Source: Sphingobium sp. MI1205
GTDB taxonomy: Bacteria; Pseudomonadota; Alphaproteobacteria; Sphingomonadales; Sphingomonadaceae
Direction of reading: 5' to 3'
Length of the DNA: 64,000 nt
NCBI RefSeq assembly: GCF_001563285.1
Contig: NZ_CP005188.1
Location: forward strand, 1,307,501 to 1,371,500
In this document: piece after piece, positions 712 through 10,060 of the stretch
Layout: each line of letters begins with the position of its first letter
How positions within the stretch are numbered: the first letter of the stretch is position 1
Program-made: the position numbers and the translations under genes
The notes under the pieces: generated by a model
What the model was told of the DNA's origin: nothing
Databases searched by the model: none
What the model saw: the letters and a program-made list of their open reading frames with translations, nothing else

Positions 712-3700
712 ATGTCCCGCTATTTCATAGACCGGCCCATCTTCGCATGGGTCATCGCCATCGTCATGATGCTTGCAGGCGTCCTGGCAATCCGCTCACT
801 GGCTGTGGCCCAGTTCCCTGAAATCGCGGCGCCCGCCGTGCAGATATCGACCAGCTATCCCGGCGCCAACGCGGAGACGCTGGAAAGCACGACGACGCAG
901 GTGATCGAGCAGCAGCTCAAGGGCATCGACCACTTGCGCTACTTCTCGTCATCGAGTGACGGCGCGGGCCGCCTGACCATCACCCTGACGTTCGAGCAGG
1001 GCACCGATCCTGACATCGCTCAGGTTCAGGTGCAGAACAAACTCGCACAGGCGACGCCGCTGCTTCCGCAGGAAGTGCAGCAGCAGGGCCTGCGCGTGAC
1101 CAAGTCGAGCGCCACATTTCTCATGATCATGGCCATCTATGCCGATGATGGTATCCACGACCAGCAGGATGCGGGCGACTTCATCGCATCCTCGTTGCAG
1201 GACCCGATCAGCCGCCTGAACGGCGTGGGTGATACCCAGCTTCTGGGTGCGCAATACGCCATGCGCGTCTGGCTCGATCCGACCAAGATGGCCAGTCTGG
1301 GCGTTACCGCGACTGATGTGACCGCCGCGATCCGGGCGCAGAACGCACAGGTTTCCGCCGGCCAGGTCGGCGCTTCGCCGTCACCCAAGGGACAAGCGCT
1401 CAACGCCACGATAGCCGCCCAGTCGCGCCTGCGCACCGCCGAGCAATTCCGCAAGATCATGCTGCGGAACAATCCCGATGGCTCGGTGGTCCACCTTTCC
1501 GACGTCGCACGCGTCGAACTGGGCGCCGAAAACTACAGCTTCGGCGCCTCACTCAACGGCCATCCAGCCGCGGGCTTGGGCATCAAGCTGGCGCCCGGCG
1601 CCAACGCCCTCGATACCGTGGACGGTGTGAAGACGAAGATCGACCAGCTCTCCAAGGACTTTCCGAGCTGGGTGAAGTACAAGTTCCCGGTCGATAACTC
1701 GACTTATGTCAAGCTCTCCGTCGAGCAGGTTGTCCATACACTTGTCGAAGCAGTCGTGCTCGTCTTCCTCGTCATGTTCCTGTTCCTGCAAAACTGGCGC
1801 GCGACGCTGATCCCCACCATCGCCGTCCCTGTGGTCCTGCTGGGATCGATCGCGATCCTGCAATTGGCCGGCTTTACCATCAATACCTTGACCCTGTTCG
1901 GCATGGTCCTGGCGATCGGCCTCCTGGTCGATGATGCCATTGTCGTAGTGGAGAATGTCGAACGTCTCATCCAGACTGAAGGGCTGAGCCCCAGGGAAGC
2001 GGCGCGCAGGTCGATGGACGAGATCAGCGGTGCGCTGGTCGGCATCGGCCTCGTGCTTTCGGCGGTGTTCCTGCCGATGGCGTTCTTCGGCGGTTCCACC
2101 GGCGTGATCTTCCGCCAATTCTCGATCACGATAGTCTCCTCGATGGTGCTTTCGGTGCTGGTCGCCCTAATCCTGACGCCGGCGCTTTGCGCGACCATCC
2201 TCAAGCCGGCTAAGGACGGCCATGGTCATGGCGAAGGTAAGCAGACCGGTATCGCTGGCCTGTTCAACCGTTTCTTCGCCTGGTTCAATGCCGCGTTCGA
2301 TCGCGGGGTGGGACGCTACGGCGGGACGGTAGAGAAAGTTGAACGCCGTTGGGTCCGAACGATGCTGATCTATGCCGCCATCGTGATTGGCATGGGTGTC
2401 ATCTTCCTGCGGATTCCCGGCGGTTTCCTGCCCGACGAAGACCAGGGCATCCTGATCAATCAGGTGTCGATGCCGGCGGGCACGACCCTGGAGGAAACCG
2501 AACGCACGCTCGCCCGAGTGCGCAATTACTACTTCAAGAATGAAAAGGCCAACGTCGCTGACATCTTCACGATCTCGGGCTTCGGATTCGTCGGACAGGG
2601 AGAGAATGTGGGCCTTGCCTTTGTCCGCATGAAGGACTGGTCCGAACGCAAGGGCAAGGACAACGCGGTGATGGCGATCGCGCAGCGCGCCAACATGGCG
2701 TTCCACAAGATATCCTCCGGCATGGTCATCGCCTTTGCTCCGCCCGCCGTGCAGGAACTGGGTAACGCCACGGGCTTCGAGTTCCAGCTCGTCGACAGGG
2801 GCGGTCTTGGCCATCAGAAGATGCTCGAAGCGCGAAACCAGTTCCTCGGCATGGCCGCCGGTGACGAGCGTCTGGCGCAAGTTCGTCCCAACGGTCTTGA
2901 GGACACGCCTCAGCTCAAGCTCAATGTCGATCAGGCCGCTGCCGGTACTCTCGGCATCGCCCAGTCCGACATCAATGCGACCATCAGCACCGCGATGGGC
3001 AGTACCTACGTCAATGACTTCATCGACCGCGACCGTGTGAAAAGGGTGTTCGTGCAGGCCGATGGCCAGTTCCGCTCCACTCCCGACGCGATTGGCGCGT
3101 TCTTCGTGCGGGGCAATTCCGGTGTGATGGCGCCGATCTCCTCCTTCGGGAGGACGGAATGGACCTATGGCCCGGCCAAGCTTGAACGCTTCAACGGCGT
3201 TTCGTCGATGCAGATCATGGGTGCGCCGGCGTCGGGCGTTTCGACCGGTGAGGCGATGAAGGTCGTCGAACAGCTTGCCAGCAAGCTGCCCGCGGGCGTC
3301 GGCCTTGAATGGAGCGGCATTTCCTATGAGGAAAGGACCTCCGGCGGCCAGGCCCCGGCGCTCTACGCGCTGTCCATGCTGATCGTGTTCCTGTGCCTTG
3401 CCGCGCTCTATGAGAGCTGGTCGGTGCCGATCGCGGTCATTCTGGTCGTGCCCCTCGGCGTGCTCGGCGCAGTGATCGCGGCGACGCTGGTGGGTCTCAA
3501 CAACGATATCTACCTGCAGGTGGGCCTCATCACGACCATCGGCGTTTCGGCCAAGAACGCGATCCTTATCGTCGAGTTCGCGGAAGAGAAGATGCGGGGC
3601 GGACTGTCTCCGGTGCAGGCGGCCCTCGAAGCCGGCAAGCTGCGTCTGCGGCCGATTCTGATGACAAGCTTCGCCTTCATATTCGGCGTGTTGCCGCTTG

Positions 3701-3900
3701 CGCTCTCCACCGGCGCGGGCGCCGGCGGCCAGAACGCGATAGGCTGGGCCGTGGTGGGCGGGATGGTCTCCGCCACCGTTCTGGCAATCTTCTTCGTACC
3801 CGTGTTCTTCACCGTGGTGAAACGCCTGTTCCGCGAACACCACGGAACGGACGGTGCAAATCTCGACGGCGAGGCTCCGACCGCGTCGCAGGAGGCATGA
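712..3900 (+). CDS. RND multidrug efflux inner-membrane transporter (HAE-1 family)
   Basis: This 1062-residue protein has the length and layout of AcrB/MexB/OqxB proton-drug antiporters. It shows the N-terminal [10 protein letters not shown] start, two blocks of transmembrane helices around large periplasmic loops, the TM4 proton-relay pair in [16 protein letters not shown], and the TM10 lysine in [16 protein letters not shown] His-rich cytoplasmic linker (HGHGEGK) sits between the halves. HAE-1 pumps take hydrophobic and amphiphilic drugs from periplasm or membrane using the proton gradient. The start lies 3 bases after the adaptor stop and the end overlaps the outer-membrane factor by ATGA. 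All key proton-relay residues appear intact. Substrate range is unknown. Confidence 0.95.
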
Positions 3901-5324
3901 AAATGCGAAATGTGAAAGCGCTTACCGCCACTTCGCTGGCGCTCGCGCTGGCGGCCTGCAACATGGCGCCCAAATATGTCCGCCCCGAACTGCCCGTCCC
4001 CGCGACGAGTCCATCGGCGCCAGTCGAAGGGACGGCGGATGATGCGGCCAGCGTGTCGGCCGATACCGCTTGGAAGGATTTCTTCACTGACCCGCGCTTG
4101 GTGCGCGTCATCCAGACCGCGCTTGACAACAACCGCGACTTGCGCATTGCGGTCGCCAATGTCGAGCAGGCGCGCGCACAATACCGCGCGCAGCGTGCTG
4201 ATCTGCTGCCCACGCTGGGCGCCAGCGGCAGCGCGACCTATCAGGATCAGCCGTTCGCCCAGTCATCGGCGGGCGGCTCCGGATCGGCAACCGGCCGGAC
4301 GGACATTTACAGCGCCCCGGTGGGCGTTTCGGCATGGGAGATCGATCTCTTCGGTCGGGTCCGCAATCTGAGCAAGGCCGCGCAGGAATCCTACTTCGCC
4401 TCAGTCGAGAACCGCAATGCCGCGCAGGTCTCGCTGATCGCCGAAACGGCGACGGCATGGCTGACGATGGCGGCGGATCAGGAACGGCTTCGGATCGCCC
4501 GAGATCTCGAAACGGCATTCGGACAGACGCTCGATCTCACCAAGGCGCGGTTCGCCAAGGGCGTCGCTTCCGAACTCGAAGTGCATCAGGCCCAGACCAG
4601 CTACGATCAGGCCCGTTCTGACATTGCCTCGGCAGCCACCCTGGTCGCGCAGGACAAGAATGCGCTCGATCTGCTGGCGGGAACCAGCCTCGCGCCCGAC
4701 GTCCTTCCGGCCACACTGCCCGAAAGCGACGTGACGCTGACCAACCTGCCGGCGGATCTGCCTTCAACGCTGCTGTTGCGCCGCCCGGACATTGCCGCCG
4801 CAGAGCACCGGTTGAAGGTGGCCAACGCCAATATCGGCGCGGCCCGCGCGGCGTTCGTCCCGAACATTTCGCTCACCGCCGCTTTCGGAACCGTAAGCCT
4901 TGGCCTCTCCAACCTGTTCAAATCGGGTAGCGACTTCTGGTCAGTGGCGCCCTCGGCCACTGTGCCAATCTTCGATTTCGGCAAGAACCAGGGCAACCTT
5001 CGCTACGCTCGCGCCACTTACGATGCCATGGTCGCAACGTACGAGAAGAGTGTGCAGACGGGCTTCAGGGAAGTCGCCGATGCACTCACCCGGCGGGCGA
5101 CGATGACCGCGCAACTGGAAGCGCAGACCTCGCTGCGGGACTCCGCGCGGGCCGGCTATCGCCTGTCGGACGCCCGCTTCCGGGCGGGTGTCGATGACTT
5201 CCTGACGACGCTCGATGCCCAGCGCACGCTCTACAATGCCGAGCAGGCACTGGTCGCTACGCGGCTGATCCGGGCAAGCAATATGGTAGAGATCTACCGT
5301 TCTATCGGTGGCGGGTTGAAATAG
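3897..5324 (+). CDS. NodT/OprM-family outer-membrane efflux lipoprotein
   Basis: A 475-residue outer-membrane factor. The N-terminus is a lipoprotein signal with lipobox LALAAC (Cys about residue 20), followed by the [12 protein letters not shown] motif common to NodT/OprM proteins. Two OEP repeats follow, with the conserved [14 protein letters not shown] segment near residues 292-305. It forms the trimeric exit duct for the RND pump. The start overlaps the pump stop by four bases (ATGA), indicating translational coupling; a second in-frame ATG at 3903 is an alternative. No T-rich terminator is visible directly downstream. Confidence 0.95.
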
Positions 5325-5845
5325 CCTCGTTACGGCAAGACTGCATCCTTACAGATCTCCAAATAAAGAAGGGTTTCCGAGAGTTTTCGTCAAATAAATG
5401 AACCAATGAGCGCCGGTATGGGTTCAATTTGTCTGTCGGAAAACAGATGTATTCCGGTTTTTTAGATCCGACCAATTTTACAGTAAGAACGTGCCTGCGG
5501 CATCGTACCGCAGTCCGGTTTGGCGAAATGCACGAAAAGCCCTGTCGGATGGGAAAACTGCCCAGCAACTTCGAAAGCAAGGTTTTCCGTCAGGGGGCAA
5601 CGGCAGCTGTATAGGGGCGCCGGTCGAAACCGGCCATTCTCCTATCTGCCCAAGAGGCGCCACAAGCCGCCGCCTGAATGAACGGCCGGTTTGGAAGACA
5701 AGCGAAGTATCGCGAACGTCAGCTATGTTGGCGTTCGTTGCCTGACAGACCCGACCTTAGGGCGAGTTCAGCGAATAATAATAATAATAATCGATCCGCA
5801 TTATTGGCTGTCACTCCATGGTGGGCAAGCCATTTTGGGATACGA
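5325..5845. other. Non-coding stretch between efflux operon and ampR
   Basis: About 520 bases without a convincing gene. It lies downstream of both flanking genes, since the efflux operon and ampR converge here. It is less GC-rich than its surroundings. It holds three short perfect inverted repeats: arms CTGCGG/CCGCAG at 5495-5513, GCCGGT/ACCGGC with a CGAA loop at 5619-5634, and CGAACG/CGTTCG at 5712-5736. An AAT microsatellite lies at 5774-5791. None of the hairpins has a following T-run, so none is a clear intrinsic terminator. The open frames here lack ribosome sites and recognisable motifs. Confidence 0.6.
5774..5791. repeat. AAT trinucleotide microsatellite (6 copies)
   Basis: Six uninterrupted AAT units lie in the non-coding stretch just downstream of ampR, immediately followed by TCG and later by ATTATT. 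Such an AT-only run is unusual in this GC-rich sequence. It is outside any likely promoter, so no regulatory role is proposed. Confidence 0.85.
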
Positions 5846-6721
5846 TCACGCCTCCGCTGCAACCTCATTCATCAGCCAGTGCCGAAATGAACGCATAGCA
5901 TCGCTGTCCTTTCGCGATATAAGCCGGGTCAGCCAGTAGCGCCCAGCATCGACCGCAATGTCGAATGGCTGGACTAGGTGCTCGGCGATTAGTTCGTATG
6001 TAAACATCGCAGCGGGCGCCAGCGCTACTCCCAGGCCATTTGCCGCCGCCGCAACCATCAGTGCGGAGCTGTCGAATACCGGGCCGCGCAGCACGGGTTG
6101 AGAGGCACCTGCCGCTTCAAACCAGCGACGCCATTCGTCGGGCCGATAGGAACGCAATAATAATTCCTGGGTCAGGTCGCGGGGGCTGCTCAGCCGGTGG
6201 GCGATCGACGGCGCGCAGAGCGGGGTCAACCTAGCCTCGAACAGCGGTTCTGCAATGGTGCCATGCCACGCGCCGTCCCCGAAGCGGATCGCGAAGTCGA
6301 GCGCTTCGCCCGCGATGTCGACGCGGTTGTTGTTGGTTGAAACGCGCAAGTCGATGTGAGGACAGGCACGCTCGAACCCGCCAAGCCGATGAAGCAGCCA
6401 GCCGGTCGCGAACGTACCGACGACGCCGATGTGCAACACCTCGCGAAATCGACCGTCCGTATATTGGTCGAGCAAAGCGCCTACCCGATCGAACATGTCG
6501 GCCAGCACTGGCACCAGAGCCTGCCCGTCGTCGGTTAGTGCCAAGCCCCGCGGCAGCCGATGGAACAGACGGGTGCCGAGCCGCCGTTCGAGTTGCGCAA
6601 CCTGATGGCTCACGGCCCCTTGACTGACGCACAGTTCGATCGCGGCGCGAGTGAAGTTGAGATGGCGCGCCGCCGCCTCGAAAGCACGTAGGGCATTGAG
6701 AGGAAGCTGGGATCGATCCAT
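5846..6721 (-). CDS. ampR: AmpR-type LysR transcriptional regulator of beta-lactamase
   Basis: A 291-residue LysR-family regulator that reads closely like AmpR. The N-terminal winged HTH contains LPLNALRAFEAAARHLNFTRAA and ELCVSQGAVSHQV (about residues 6-42). The effector domain has the AmpR-type stretches VGTFATGWLL (about 100-109), NNRVDIAGEALDFAIRFGDGAWHGT (split motif, about 130-155), LLRSYRPDEW and the C-terminal YWLTRL. AmpR senses muropeptides and switches between repressing and activating an adjacent beta-lactamase gene. The gene is divergent from a metallo-beta-lactamase with a 97-base shared control region, the classical ampR-bla arrangement. The muropeptide import and recycling genes (ampG, ampD) are not in the window. 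Confidence 0.92.
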   Translation of the reverse strand: MDRSQLPLNALRAFEAAARHLNFTRAAIELCVSQGAVSHQVAQLERRLGTRLFHRLPRGLALTDDGQALVPVLADMFDRVGALLDQYTDGRFREVLHIGVVGTFATGWLLHRLGGFERACPHIDLRVSTNNNRVDIAGEALDFAIRFGDGAWHGTIAEPLFEARLTPLCAPSIAHRLSSPRDLTQELLLRSYRPDEWRRWFEAAGASQPVLRGPVFDSSALMVAAAANGLGVALAPAAMFTYELIAEHLVQPFDIAVDAGRYWLTRLISRKDSDAMRSFRHWLMNEVAAEA

Positions 6722-6727
6722 CGCTTA

Positions 6728-6756
6728 GTTATGAATTAAACTCATGACTCTGTCGA
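6728..6756 (-). promoter_or_regulatory. Candidate sigma-70 promoter of ampR
   Basis: On the minus strand a -35-like TCGACA (6756-6751) is separated by 17 bases from a -10-like CATAAC (6733-6728). Only six bases (TAAGCG) separate the -10 element from the ampR ATG, so transcription would begin at or next to the start codon and the message would be nearly leaderless. No ribosome-binding site is visible before ampR, which agrees with this. The promoter matches are imperfect. Confidence 0.45.
6731..6745. promoter_or_regulatory. Candidate AmpR/LysR operator between ampR and the lactamase gene
   Basis: A 15-base inverted repeat, ATGA-N7-TCAT, contains the T-N11-A core expected of LysR-family binding sites. 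It lies in the ampR/lactamase intergenic region and inside the spacer of the proposed ampR promoter, a placement compatible with AmpR autorepression. It is the best dyad in this region, but binding is inferred only. Confidence 0.5.
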
Positions 6757-6818
6757 GAAATGATGCTTTGTTTCTGCATCGTCCATGTCGCAATCCTGGC
6801 TGCGAAGGAGATTTGTAA

Positions 6819-7691
6819 ATGTCGAGGATGCGACTTTTAACGGCGGGCGCGTTGGCAGCATTGTTGGGCTCGATTAGTCTATTGGCGCAAACGCAGGAGG
6901 ACGTCCTGACCAAGCCCATTATCGGCTCCCGAACCGCAGAATGGCTTTCCCCCCTGCCGCCACAGAAAATCTTCGGCAATAGCTATCTTGTTGGCTTCGG
7001 CGGTCTGAGTGTCGCCTTGATCGACACAGGTGCGGGGCTGATTCTGATTGATGGCGCGTTACCGCAGGCTGCACCCGCCATCCTCGACAATGTCAGGCGG
7101 CTGGGCTTTCATCCGCGCGACATCAAATATATTCTCAGCACCGAACCCCATTTCGACCATGCCGGTGGCATCGCGGCGCTGGCGCGCGACACGGGCGCTA
7201 CCGTCGTCGCCAGTCCACGGGGTGCGGAAGGACTGCTGGCCGGTCGCCTTGCTGCCGATGATCCGCAGCATGGTTATGGCGGCTCCTGGCCGGCCGTGGC
7301 AAAGGTTCAAACCATCCGCGACCACCAAACCCTGCGGCTGGGTAATACAACGGTCACCGCGCTGGCAACGCCGGGTCATACCATGGGCAGCATGAGCTGG
7401 CGCTGGAAGTCGTGCGAACAGCGGACGTGCCGGATGATCATATTTGCCGCGAGCTTGAACCCGGTATCGACCGACGATTATCGTTACACCGCGCCGACCG
7501 CGCGCCCGATCGTCACCGGTTTCAGCAAAAGCTATAAAGCGATGAACAAGACCCCCTGCGATATCCTGATCTCGGCCCACCCGGACAATGCCGGCGAAGG
7601 CCGGTACAACGACCACCCCGGAGCCTGCCGCGCTTATGCCGAACACTCGCGCAAAGCGCTGGGCCAGCGCATGAAATCACAGCGGCGCTGA
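6819..7691 (+). CDS. Subclass B3 metallo-beta-lactamase, B3-E type (Glu at zinc ligand 1)
   Basis: A 290-residue secreted zinc hydrolase with an N-terminal signal peptide (about residues 1-23). The fold markers are those of B3 lactamases: zinc motif STEPHFDHAGG (Glu109, His111, Asp113, His114), TPGHTMGS (His187) and ISAHPD (His254). In ordinary B3 enzymes the first motif is HxHxDH; here the first His (standard position 116) is Glu, giving E-x-H-x-D-H. This is the defining feature of the small B3-E group first characterised with SIE-1 from Sphingobium indicum. The expected role is beta-lactam hydrolysis in the periplasm. The start is supported by AAGGAG at 6805-6810, eight bases upstream. Divergent ampR suggests inducible expression. 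Cys247 and Cys270 could form the C-terminal disulfide. Confidence 0.92.
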   Translation: MSRMRLLTAGALAALLGSISLLAQTQEDVLTKPIIGSRTAEWLSPLPPQKIFGNSYLVGFGGLSVALIDTGAGLILIDGALPQAAPAILDNVRRLGFHPRDIKYILSTEPHFDHAGGIAALARDTGATVVASPRGAEGLLAGRLAADDPQHGYGGSWPAVAKVQTIRDHQTLRLGNTTVTALATPGHTMGSMSWRWKSCEQRTCRMIIFAASLNPVSTDDYRYTAPTARPIVTGFSKSYKAMNKTPCDILISAHPDNAGEGRYNDHPGACRAYAEHSRKALGQRMKSQRR

Positions 7692-7809
7692 ATGTCCTCA
7701 TGATTGGCACCTGAGCGGAGTGGGCGCGTAGGGAGTCTGAGCGGACGACTGCTTTCGCAAGGTGATCTCTAGGCTTGAACGACCGCTAAGTTGGCGAGTA
7801 CAGACGCTT

Positions 7810-8729: not shown

Positions 8730-9032
8730 TCAGGCGGCTCTTGCAAACTTCTGGACCTTGATGTCGCGCTCATGCTCACGGGCTTGGGCCAGTTCATAGG
8801 CGGTCTGCATCCGCAACAGCGTATCGGCCTTGAGCCCGAAAGCCTTCTCGAACCGAATAGCCATATCGGCAGAGAGGTTCGCATTACCGTTCAACAAGGT
8901 GCTAAGTGCCTGCCTCGAGACGCCAAAATGCTCTGCCAAGGCCGTTACGCTGACCTGTGCCGGCTCAACAATTTCCGTCTTCAGCCAGTCGCCGACGTGG
9001 ACGGCGAGCGAAGGGTGCATCTTAAGCGCCAT
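8730..9032 (-). CDS. higA: HigA-family antitoxin (XRE-type HTH)
   Basis: A 100-residue HTH protein beginning MALKMHPSLAVHVGDWL. The helix-turn-helix is VTALAEHFGVSRQALSTLLNG, followed by the IRFEKAFG motif usual in HigA/VapI antitoxins. It would bind and neutralise the HigB toxin and repress the shared operon through a palindromic operator. It is the second gene of the pair, starting 11 bases inside the end of the toxin gene, the reverse toxin-first order typical of higBA. The start at 9032 was preferred over a longer frame because the product then begins like family members. Confidence 0.9.
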   Translation of the reverse strand: MALKMHPSLAVHVGDWLKTEIVEPAQVSVTALAEHFGVSRQALSTLLNGNANLSADMAIRFEKAFGLKADTLLRMQTAYELAQAREHERDIKVQKFARAA

Positions 9033-9312
9033 GATAATCCTCCAAATCCATATCGACGAGCGCGCCTTCGTCATTCAAGCCAAAGGTCATTCGCCAGTTT
9101 CTTGTCACCGTCATCGACCAGCTACCTTTCCGGTCGCCTGTCAGCTCATGCAATCCGAAATTCGGGGGCACCGACAGTTCATCGAAGCTTTCCGCAGCGT
9201 CGATGAAAGCAAGCATCTTACGCAACCGTCCTGCATCTCCAACCAAGCCTTTAGCGTTGCCGGTCTCAAAGAAGCGGCGCAGGCCTTTGTGCCTGATGCT
9301 CTCAATTTCCAT
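9022..9312 (-). CDS. higB: HigB-family ribosome-dependent mRNA interferase toxin
   Basis: A 96-residue RelE/HigB-fold protein starting MEIESIRHKGLRRFFETG. Family signatures include KGLVGDAGRLRKMLAFIDAA, SVPPNFGLHELTGDRKG and the C-terminal WRMTFG and VDMDLEDYH segments. HigB toxins cleave mRNA on the translating ribosome. It is the first gene of the higBA pair, overlapping higA by 11 bases. ATG at 9312 matches the family start. It has no ribosome site and lies six bases after a good -10 box, so translation may be leaderless. A further upstream frame start (9339) would run into the promoter. Confidence 0.9.
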   Translation of the reverse strand: MEIESIRHKGLRRFFETGNAKGLVGDAGRLRKMLAFIDAAESFDELSVPPNFGLHELTGDRKGSWSMTVTRNWRMTFGLNDEGALVDMDLEDYHGA

Positions 9313-9318
9313 TCTTAG

Positions 9319-9346
9319 ATTATGACTCGTCACGCACAAATGTCAA
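9319..9346 (-). promoter_or_regulatory. higBA promoter
   Basis: On the minus strand a perfect TTGACA (9346-9341) is followed after 16 bases by CATAAT (9324-9319). The higB ATG follows the -10 element by six bases, so the transcript would start at or within a base or two of the initiation codon. The -35 box overlaps the end of the palindromic operator, which fits repression by HigA. Confidence 0.7.
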
Positions 9347-9427: not shown

Positions 9428-10060
9428 ATGGGACATTCAGACCTAGACCCTGCCATTCATGAGCGGCATCCATGAAATGCCGGTAAAAACGTCGGCCCAA
9501 AGCGACCGCTGAAGCCGCGCGATATCTGGGCGATCCGCTTCTATCTCGATGAGCACAGACGTCTGCGCGACCGGGCGCTATTTGACCTAGCTATCGACAG
9601 TAAGCTGCGCGGCTGTGATCTGGTGAAGCTCAAGATCGGTGATCTGATGAGCGCTGGGTCATTTCGTGATCGTGCGACGGTCATCCAGCAGAAGACCGGT
9701 CGTCCGGTGCAATTCGAGATCATGTCCGAGACACGAACGAGTCTGAGGGCATGGCTTGACCGGCGCGGCGGAACAATCCGTGACTTCGTGTTCCCAAGCC
9801 GTATTGATTATCTCGGTCACCTGAGCACACGGCAGTATGCGCGCCTTGTCGATGAGTGGGTCTCAACGATCGGTCTCGACAAACGGGAGTACGGTACGCA
9901 CTCGATGCGAAGGACGAAGGCTGCACTGATCTATAAGGCAACCGGCAATCTTCGCGCAGTGCAAATCTTGCTGGGTCATACCAATATTGAAAACACCGTC
10001 AGATATCTTGGCGTGGACGTCGACGATGCGCTGACACTATCTGAGCGCACCGAAATCTGA
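9428..10060 (+). pseudogene. Tyrosine-type recombinase/integrase interrupted by an in-frame TGA
   Basis: The gene reads from ATG 9428, with GGAG at 9417-9420 seven bases upstream, through 15 codons (ending AIHERHP) to a TGA at 9473-9475. It then continues in the same frame as NAGKNVGPKRPLKPRDIWAI and on to the stop at 10058-10060, 211 codons in all. A single TGG-to-TGA change would explain the interruption. The rest is intact for a short tyrosine recombinase: Arg in SKLRGCDL, HSMRR, LLGHTNIENTVRYLG with the final His and Tyr. An internal GTG at 9623 could give a 145-residue product lacking the first Arg box. It is probably inactive, a remnant of a mobile element. Confidence 0.75.

Follow-up and report, generated by a model that had tools for sequence, protein, structure and literature searches.

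Does the AmpR-type regulator gene that stands divergent from a metallo-beta-lactamase gene in Sphingobium sp. MI1205 control that gene, and is the pairing peculiar to this locus? The two genes lie in a 64,000-nucleotide stretch of the chromosome (the window), for which the original prediction had proposed a B3-E type enzyme, with glutamate in place of a zinc-binding histidine, under the control of AmpR, a pairing that it regarded as a notable exception. The reading that we favor, and consider likely from sequence comparisons and from analogy with AmpR-AmpC, is that ampR and bla form an inducible beta-lactamase divergon under AmpR. The genes are separated by a 97-bp gap (6722-6818):

5846..6721, minus strand: ampR, a LysR-type regulator of 291 aa in which G102, T103, D135, S219 (S221 of AmpR) and Y262 (Y264) are kept, with Ala at 42
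6805..6810, plus strand: likely bla ribosome-binding site by its sequence, AAGGAG
6819..7691, plus strand: bla, subclass B3 metallo-beta-lactamase of the B3-E kind, zinc ligands E109, H111, H187 / D113, H114, H254

The bla reading frame starts with ATG and encodes 290 aa, the N-terminus of which looks like a signal peptide. The product passes NF033105 (bla_subclass_B3), the NCBIfam equivalog model for subclass B3, with 256.8 bits against a cut-off of 240. Its top PDB sequence match is 7luu (417 bits), and the second is 3vpe (199 bits), presumably SMB-1, in which the site of Glu109 is His. The structure 7luu is that of SIE-1 from Sphingobium indicum (PMC10318434, in excerpt), and 179 of the 268 residues aligned between SIE-1 and the window enzyme are identical, as are all six zinc ligands, Glu included; this match settles the ligands. 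The B3-E definition (EHH/DHH) is Glu at position 116 in BBL numbering with the five other ligands kept (excerpts of PMC10318434 and PMC7381538), and the bla product has exactly this pattern, E109/H111/H187 and D113/H114/H254. The Glu motif recurs in 80/80 related loci from a scan of genome contigs that was partly seeded with TEPHFDHA, and in 30/30 loci examined among those that the SIE-1 query retrieved (cut-off 1e-65, close relatives only), and being kept in both sets it is not there by chance. Thus, the zinc motif was predicted correctly at each of E109, H111, D113, H114, H187 and H254, and the kinship with SIE-1 is borne out by the alignment, in which Glu109 pairs with the SIE-1 Glu and the other B3 enzyme has His. 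SIE-1 has been assayed and its structure solved, whereas the window enzyme is known from its sequence. It is also true that very few B3-E enzymes are characterized (SIE-1 alone, in the portion of a 2023 review consulted, PMC10318434), but the type itself is not rare, being widespread in sphingomonads.

The LysR protein is AmpR-like by sequence, nearest to AmpR/PenR rather than GcvA. Among the 25 of 51 NCBIfam families listed for it, the top model is PenR_Burk_TF, a narrow 'exception'-type model (384 bits, under the cut-off of 625), the GcvA model scores 268 bits (under its cut-off of 288), and no general AmpR model appears. In the PDB, the AmpR effector domains 5mmh and 3kos rank first, with GcvA 8y6u after them. 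The three residues that separate the AmpR chains 3kos and 3kot, which we take to be T103, S221 and Y264 of the AmpR effector site, are all in the 3kos state (T103, S219, Y262). Both S38 and K42 are critical for DNA binding in Pseudomonas aeruginosa AmpR (PMC8401664, in excerpt); in the alignment S38 is kept, and the Lys of position 42 is Ala. This protein is the sole match in its own genome at E ≤ 1e-60, based on the 16 of 33 first-look candidates that were scored. The PenR score, the PDB matches and the position 97 bp from bla all agree with the prediction of a convincing divergent ampR. Furthermore, the genome encodes AmpG (364.7 bits, cut-off 350), NagZ (214 bits, cut-off 207) and one Amidase_2 protein for which AmpD is the sole model (108.5 bits, under the cut-off of 143); with AmpG, NagZ and an AmpD-like gene present, the parts for AmpR-type induction exist.

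The best-surviving alternative, which we nevertheless find improbable, is that the LysR protein controls bla but does not respond to muropeptides, acting as a repressor that beta-lactams fail to relieve. The model for this is CARR of Phytobacter, which is divergent from the B3 gene blaCAR-2 and represses it, with no relief by piperacillin or ampicillin (excerpt of PMC12434095), and the window protein does score under the PenR cut-off. However, CARR is poorly conserved with AmpR according to the same excerpt, whereas the window protein is nearest to AmpR, keeps the equivalents of T103/S221/Y264 and resides in a genome with AmpG and NagZ. Moreover, relatives of this AmpR are found beside class A genes (54-66% identity; L114, L115, L116, L118) and beside class D genes (62-67% identity; L181, L184, L191). 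We retain the inducible divergon under AmpR as the preferred reading.

The pairing of AmpR with a B3-E gene is real, but it is the usual state of these genes and no local oddity, so that the claim of exceptionality falls. In the scan of genome contigs, which kept 80 loci of 87 relatives and favors Glu because the search pattern includes TEPHFDHA, a divergent AmpR gene (68-96% identity over the best segment) stands beside bla in 59/80 B3-E loci, and a linked AmpR is absent from the available stretch in 21/80; the AmpR match of L077 is split in two, and the L078 gene is truncated by a contig end. A sample of 149 genomes of the family was chosen to escape this seed bias. The enzyme query found 69 places at E ≤ 1e-20 in 68 of these genomes, and the residue at the aligned zinc site is Glu in 8, Gln in 1 and His in 60, with three loci that were fetched twice counted once. 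AmpR adjoins (within about 1 to 1.5 kb) 6/8 Glu-type and 1/1 Gln-type genes, but 0/60 His-type genes. The same 149 genomes contain 12 AmpR places, the partners of which are six B3-E genes, one B3-Q gene, four class A genes (L114, L115, L116, L118) and one esterase-like gene (L113); a beta-lactamase gene thus adjoins 11 of the 12. Similarly, at E ≤ 1e-65 the SIE-1 query matched 33 of the 397 family genomes, and a divergent AmpR is present in 25 of the 30 loci examined from these 33. The locus sets overlap, in that L211, L208, L215 and L226 duplicate L027, L003, L059 and L089, respectively. The B3-E type is widespread in sphingomonads, with 80 loci from the contigs and matches in 33/397 family genomes.

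AmpR linkage was rejected as a strict marker of the Glu type, since 2/8 B3-E genes of the family sample and 21/80 loci have no linked AmpR, and since one locus outside the family sample (L183, 1501-3177) has AmpR divergent from a His-type B3 gene. This His-type gene is probably broken, because it is spread across two reading frames. In L117 (2475-4102), the B3-Q gene immediately precedes the AmpR gene in the same orientation, and the intergenic element described below is missing. One assembly, Novosphingobium sp. SG751A, carries two ampR-bla pairs on separate contigs (L004 and L005), and a record titled Arthrobacter sp. TPD3018 (L046) has a Sphingomonas-like ampR-bla locus, such that its label is probably wrong.

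The gap between ampR and bla contains a conserved element that we read, from its sequence pattern, as a two-part AmpR operator composed of a T-N11-A dyad and an activation half:

6730..6771: conserved 42-bp element, putative AmpR operator, consensus CATgAa.ta..CTCATGGCT.TGTCGAGAaAtGATGCTTTGT
6730..6746: left half, dyad CATGA-N7-TCATG (TATGA-N7-TCATG in the window) with T-N11-A, putative recognition and autoregulation site
6747..6771, plus strand: right half ACTCTGTCGAGAAATGATGCTTTGT, putative activation site beside the bla promoter
6766..6795, plus strand: putative weak bla promoter with a -35-like CTTTGT (6766-6771), 18 bp, and a -10-like GCAATC (6790-6795)

No consensus sigma-70 promoter was found by the scan at bla, and the left half is 8 bp from the ampR start codon in the window. 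The element is ungapped in the aligned upstream regions of linked pairs and occurs at 60/60 of these (59 loci and the window), with a lowest leave-one-out score of 34.8 for a scoring matrix that was trained on the same 60 pairs. A stricter 20-base core has no match at up to 5 mismatches in 3/59 (L043, L051, L055), and in 8/59 (L010, L011, L020, L021, L023, L024, L026, L048) the distance from ampR to the core is 127-169 bp, compared to about 30 usually, because a repeat-like stretch between ampR and the element, GTCATCCCGGACTTGATCCGGG-like in several of these loci, shifts ampR by about 100-140 bp. Information content is highest at the T and A of T-N11-A, in the TGTCGAG block and in the TTTG block. 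T-N11-A motifs are also described for varRG (excerpt of PMC5595328), and the AmpR footprint upstream of ampC spans 39 bp (excerpt of PMC3660660).

Within its own genome, the strict element pattern has one site, the ampR-bla gap; a degenerate pattern found the gap site and two 3-mismatch places, while a reversed control pattern gave 1 match. A wider AmpR regulon in this genome was rejected, based on the strict pattern occurring only in the gap, although weaker sites could escape. The genome has a second beta-lactamase gene, a class A gene of the SGM family (L168, 1282-2223; 556.5 bits, cut-off 500), which was rejected as a second AmpR target (element score -39, p 0.34).

The element is found wherever a B3-E gene of the contig scan resides in a genome with AmpR, linked or not. 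Of the 21 unlinked B3-E loci, 16 belong to genomes that encode AmpR at another place (E ≤ 1e-50) and 5 to genomes without it, and two further B3-E genes (genomes G023 and G024) are without AmpR at E ≤ 1e-60. We scanned the 250 bp upstream of bla with the matrix and found the element in 16/16 unlinked loci with AmpR elsewhere (scores of 16.8 to 71.4, each above all 200 shuffles); many of these 16 are close relatives (L060-L072), and in L019, which sits at a contig end, AmpR may truly adjoin bla. By contrast, the element is absent in 7/7 B3-E genes of AmpR-less genomes (-28.6 to -52.5), among which L056 nominally reaches p 0.045 against shuffles although its score is negative, and in 60/60 His-type B3 genes (at most -21.7). 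Among the loci from the SIE-1 query, which were scored with no shuffles, all 25 with linked AmpR score at least 3.6 and 24 score at least 42.3, L219 scoring only 3.6 with an AmpR that is 56% identical; of the five without linked AmpR, L211 scores 16.8, and L212, L215, L217 and L226 score -42 to -52.

The element is likewise present where ampR has a different neighbor. Beside the class A genes of L114, L115 and L116 and the esterase-like gene of L113, its start lies 5-12 bp from that of ampR, with scores of 56.0 for the esterase-like gene and 31.0, 20.1 and 9.3 for the class A genes, all above all 300 shuffles. It is weaker beside the class A genes of L178 (-14.1) and L179 (-9.8), both still above all 300 shuffles, and weak beside the class A partner of L118 (-24.2); the matrix scan found it neither beside the B3-Q pair of L117 nor beside the AmpR of L176. 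The element tracks AmpR rather than enzyme class, and AmpR control of bla gains support, at the level of sequence, from an element that follows AmpR even when unlinked. In L113 (1371-2433), the element lies between AmpR (73% identical) and the divergent esterase-like gene, which may be a non-beta-lactamase target of AmpR.

These distributions also bear on the idea that the 42-bp element is mainly the core promoter or leader of bla, in which case its conservation would be uninformative about AmpR. The right end of the element does reach into the likely -35 region, and in linked pairs the element closely precedes bla. We consider this idea very unlikely, as the B3-E genes of AmpR-less genomes still need promoters and yet 7/7 have no element, as its distance from ampR is unchanged when the partner gene is unrelated, and as its left half persists at ampR where bla is gone.

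The two halves of this putative operator come apart where ampR is relocated. We dissected 11 ampR-side sites of the 16 genomes with unlinked AmpR, leaving out L176 (without a site), L177 (contig end), L178 and L179 (class A) and L183 (split His-type B3, score 14.4). The left half is kept at ampR in 11/11 (6.8 to 23.5; random 99.9% point 0.1). At ampR, only L181, L184 and L191 retain the right half (11.4 to 16.7; random 99.9% point -17.1), which is lost in the other 8/11 (-35 to -63). A class D beta-lactamase gene is divergent from ampR in exactly these three (3/3), based on a 169-residue part of the L184 protein for which the best family is class D, and tblastn with the L184 protein found a class D gene in 0/8 of the 1.5-kb flanks of the ampR sites without the right half. 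The bla-side site keeps both halves in 9/9 genomes scored of the 11. From these patterns, among genomes that are close kin, we infer that the left half would be the recognition site for autoregulation, and the right half an activation site that is kept only for a target gene. As AmpR is divergent from a class D gene in L181, L184 and L191, with the B3-E gene and its element elsewhere in the genome, one regulator may serve two beta-lactamase genes; this plan is seen in the genomes of the B3-E loci L070, L072 and L065.

To place these changes, we ran a fast maximum-likelihood analysis on 110 rows, comprising 89 Glu, 1 Gln and 20 His rows, with 40 further His rows omitted for size. A branch with SH-aLRT 99 separates all 89 Glu rows from the rest, giving a single B3-E clade with the window enzyme inside. 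AmpR-linked rows occupy the deepest B3-E branches (L087, L057, L088, the L081-L067 group and a large 60-row clade), and the linked/unlinked state changes 9 times, an unrooted count in which gain and loss are not separable; support is low at many forks, and L117 and part of the His rows drew long-branch warnings from the tree program. On a plain reading of the tree, AmpR linkage would be old and then lost or broken up several times. The joint loss of AmpR and the element is judged from 5 changes of AmpR presence on the tree and from 3 independent pairs on supported branches, these pairs all being concordant (p 0.25, sign test); the sign test cannot reach significance because the independent pairs are too few.

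We lean, with some reserve, to a more specific history, in which AmpR control is ancestral to the whole B3-E clade and works through a two-part operator with naturally separated halves. A relocated ampR would keep the autoregulation half, and the activation half only beside a new beta-lactamase gene; bla would keep both, with AmpR governing it in trans; and where AmpR is lost, the operator would be lost. A bolder extension is that alteration of zinc ligand 116 accompanies this control, as AmpR adjoins 7/9 Glu/Gln genes but 0/60 His genes of the family sample; inducible expression may then have set the conditions for keeping the altered zinc site.

The mechanism that we propose for the window draws its ligand switching, AmpR binding and induction from AmpR-AmpC. 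With no drug, AmpR would sit with a cell-wall-precursor ligand on the 42-bp element, so that bla would be low and AmpR's own transcription limited. Once a beta-lactam disturbs the wall, anhydro-muropeptides that AmpG imports and NagZ trims would displace the AmpR ligand, and AmpR, acting at the element's right half, would then switch on bla. Its exported product, a two-zinc enzyme by analogy with SIE-1 (Zn1: Glu109, His111, His187), is predicted to hydrolyze the drug. In Agrobacterium, AmpC production requires AmpR (excerpt of PMC9238390).

We also consider it very unlikely that the enzyme serves chiefly something other than drug resistance, with Glu109 tuned to another cell-wall-related or natural beta-lactam substrate and AmpR signaling general wall damage: AIM-1 and GOB-18 in general outperform SIE-1 in efficiency, and SIE-1 has a preference for cephalosporins (PMC10318434, in excerpt), and one AmpR of the family sample adjoins an esterase-like gene (L113), but SIE-1 attacks all major beta-lactam classes (same excerpt), B3-E enzymes conferred resistance in Escherichia coli disc tests (excerpt of PMC7381538), and the partner is a beta-lactamase gene for 11 of the 12 family-sample AmpR genes.

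The inducible divergon that we favor resembles several known systems. It shares with the AmpR-AmpC divergons of Citrobacter, Enterobacter, Pseudomonas and, among alphaproteobacteria, Agrobacterium a divergent LysR gene of the AmpR kind, AmpG/NagZ/AmpD-like genes and, as judged by length, a short shared intergenic operator of about 40 bp, putative in the window; it differs in that their partner is a serine class C enzyme, whereas the window partner is a zinc B3-E enzyme. The nearest relatives of SIE-1 among the loci examined, L197 (82% identical to SIE-1) and L198 (78%), have a divergent AmpR and the element. In plan, the Stenotrophomonas AmpR-L2/L1 system is like the genomes of L070, L072 and L065, as the B3 gene is unlinked, but its AmpR adjoins the class A gene L2, whereas the window AmpR adjoins a B3-E gene. 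L1 of Stenotrophomonas is of the His type. Since AmpR is assumed to control the unlinked B3 gene L1 in Stenotrophomonas maltophilia (excerpt of PMC4667094), AmpR control of a B3 enzyme has a precedent. VarR-VarG of Vibrio and CARR-CAR-2 of Phytobacter are alike in that 111 bp separate the gene of a LysR regulator from a divergent metallo-beta-lactamase gene (excerpts of PMC5595328 and PMC12434095), but CARR is unlike the window AmpR in its poor conservation with AmpR, and the var regulon includes an efflux pump (PMC5595328), whereas the RND genes of the window have no relatives in 88 related loci. The neighboring RND pump (712-5324) was thus rejected as part of a var-like system, with no RND relative at E ≤ 1e-8 in the 88 loci within the reach of the flanks. 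Titles and abstract openings in the literature yielded no report of AmpR/LysR control of B3-E or sphingomonad metallo-beta-lactamases, which is weak evidence with subscription papers mostly outside the search.

The ampR-bla pair is bounded by direct repeats:

5714..5733, plus strand: left flanking direct repeat GAACGTCAGCTATGTTGGCG, where homology to a plasmid copy begins
7777..7796, plus strand: right flanking direct repeat GAACGACCGCTAAGTTGGCG, about 10 bp beyond which the plasmid-copy homology ends

Block 5713-7806 alone matches the conjugative plasmid pTomMM15b of Sphingobium sp. TomMM15 (92.1% DNA identity, 2095 bp; 24.8 kb compared) and Novosphingobium sp. Chol11 (92.0%; 12.9 kb compared), and the pTomMM15b and Chol11 copies are 99.8% identical to each other across 4364 bp. 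The 20-bp repeats are alike at 17/20 positions in the window and, with up to one mismatch to the pattern, stand at both ends of the plasmid and Chol11 copies (L003 4907 and 6953; L160 10838 and 12884). The repeat pattern, derived from the two window copies, has two more places in the same genome at up to 2 mismatches. An attC-like identity of these repeats was among the readings set aside. Just downstream of the ampR-bla pair, the window has a HigB-like toxin gene next to one for a helix-turn-helix protein (8730-9339), and also downstream is a tyrosine integrase frame (9623-10060). An integrase-borne cassette was considered and set aside; this frame has one partial relative among the 88 loci, downstream of bla in L008 only.

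If AmpR control holds as proposed, sphingomonad B3-E genes would be inducible through cell-wall recycling, a general and testable rule that differs from BlaA, the metallo-beta-lactamase of Caulobacter crescentus, which is constitutive (excerpt of PMC13046382). The natural relocations of ampR amount to a ready-made dissection of the putative operator, and the gene and its switch can travel together, as the plasmid copy shows. Susceptibility tests performed with no inducer could miss B3-E genes, if these are inducible.
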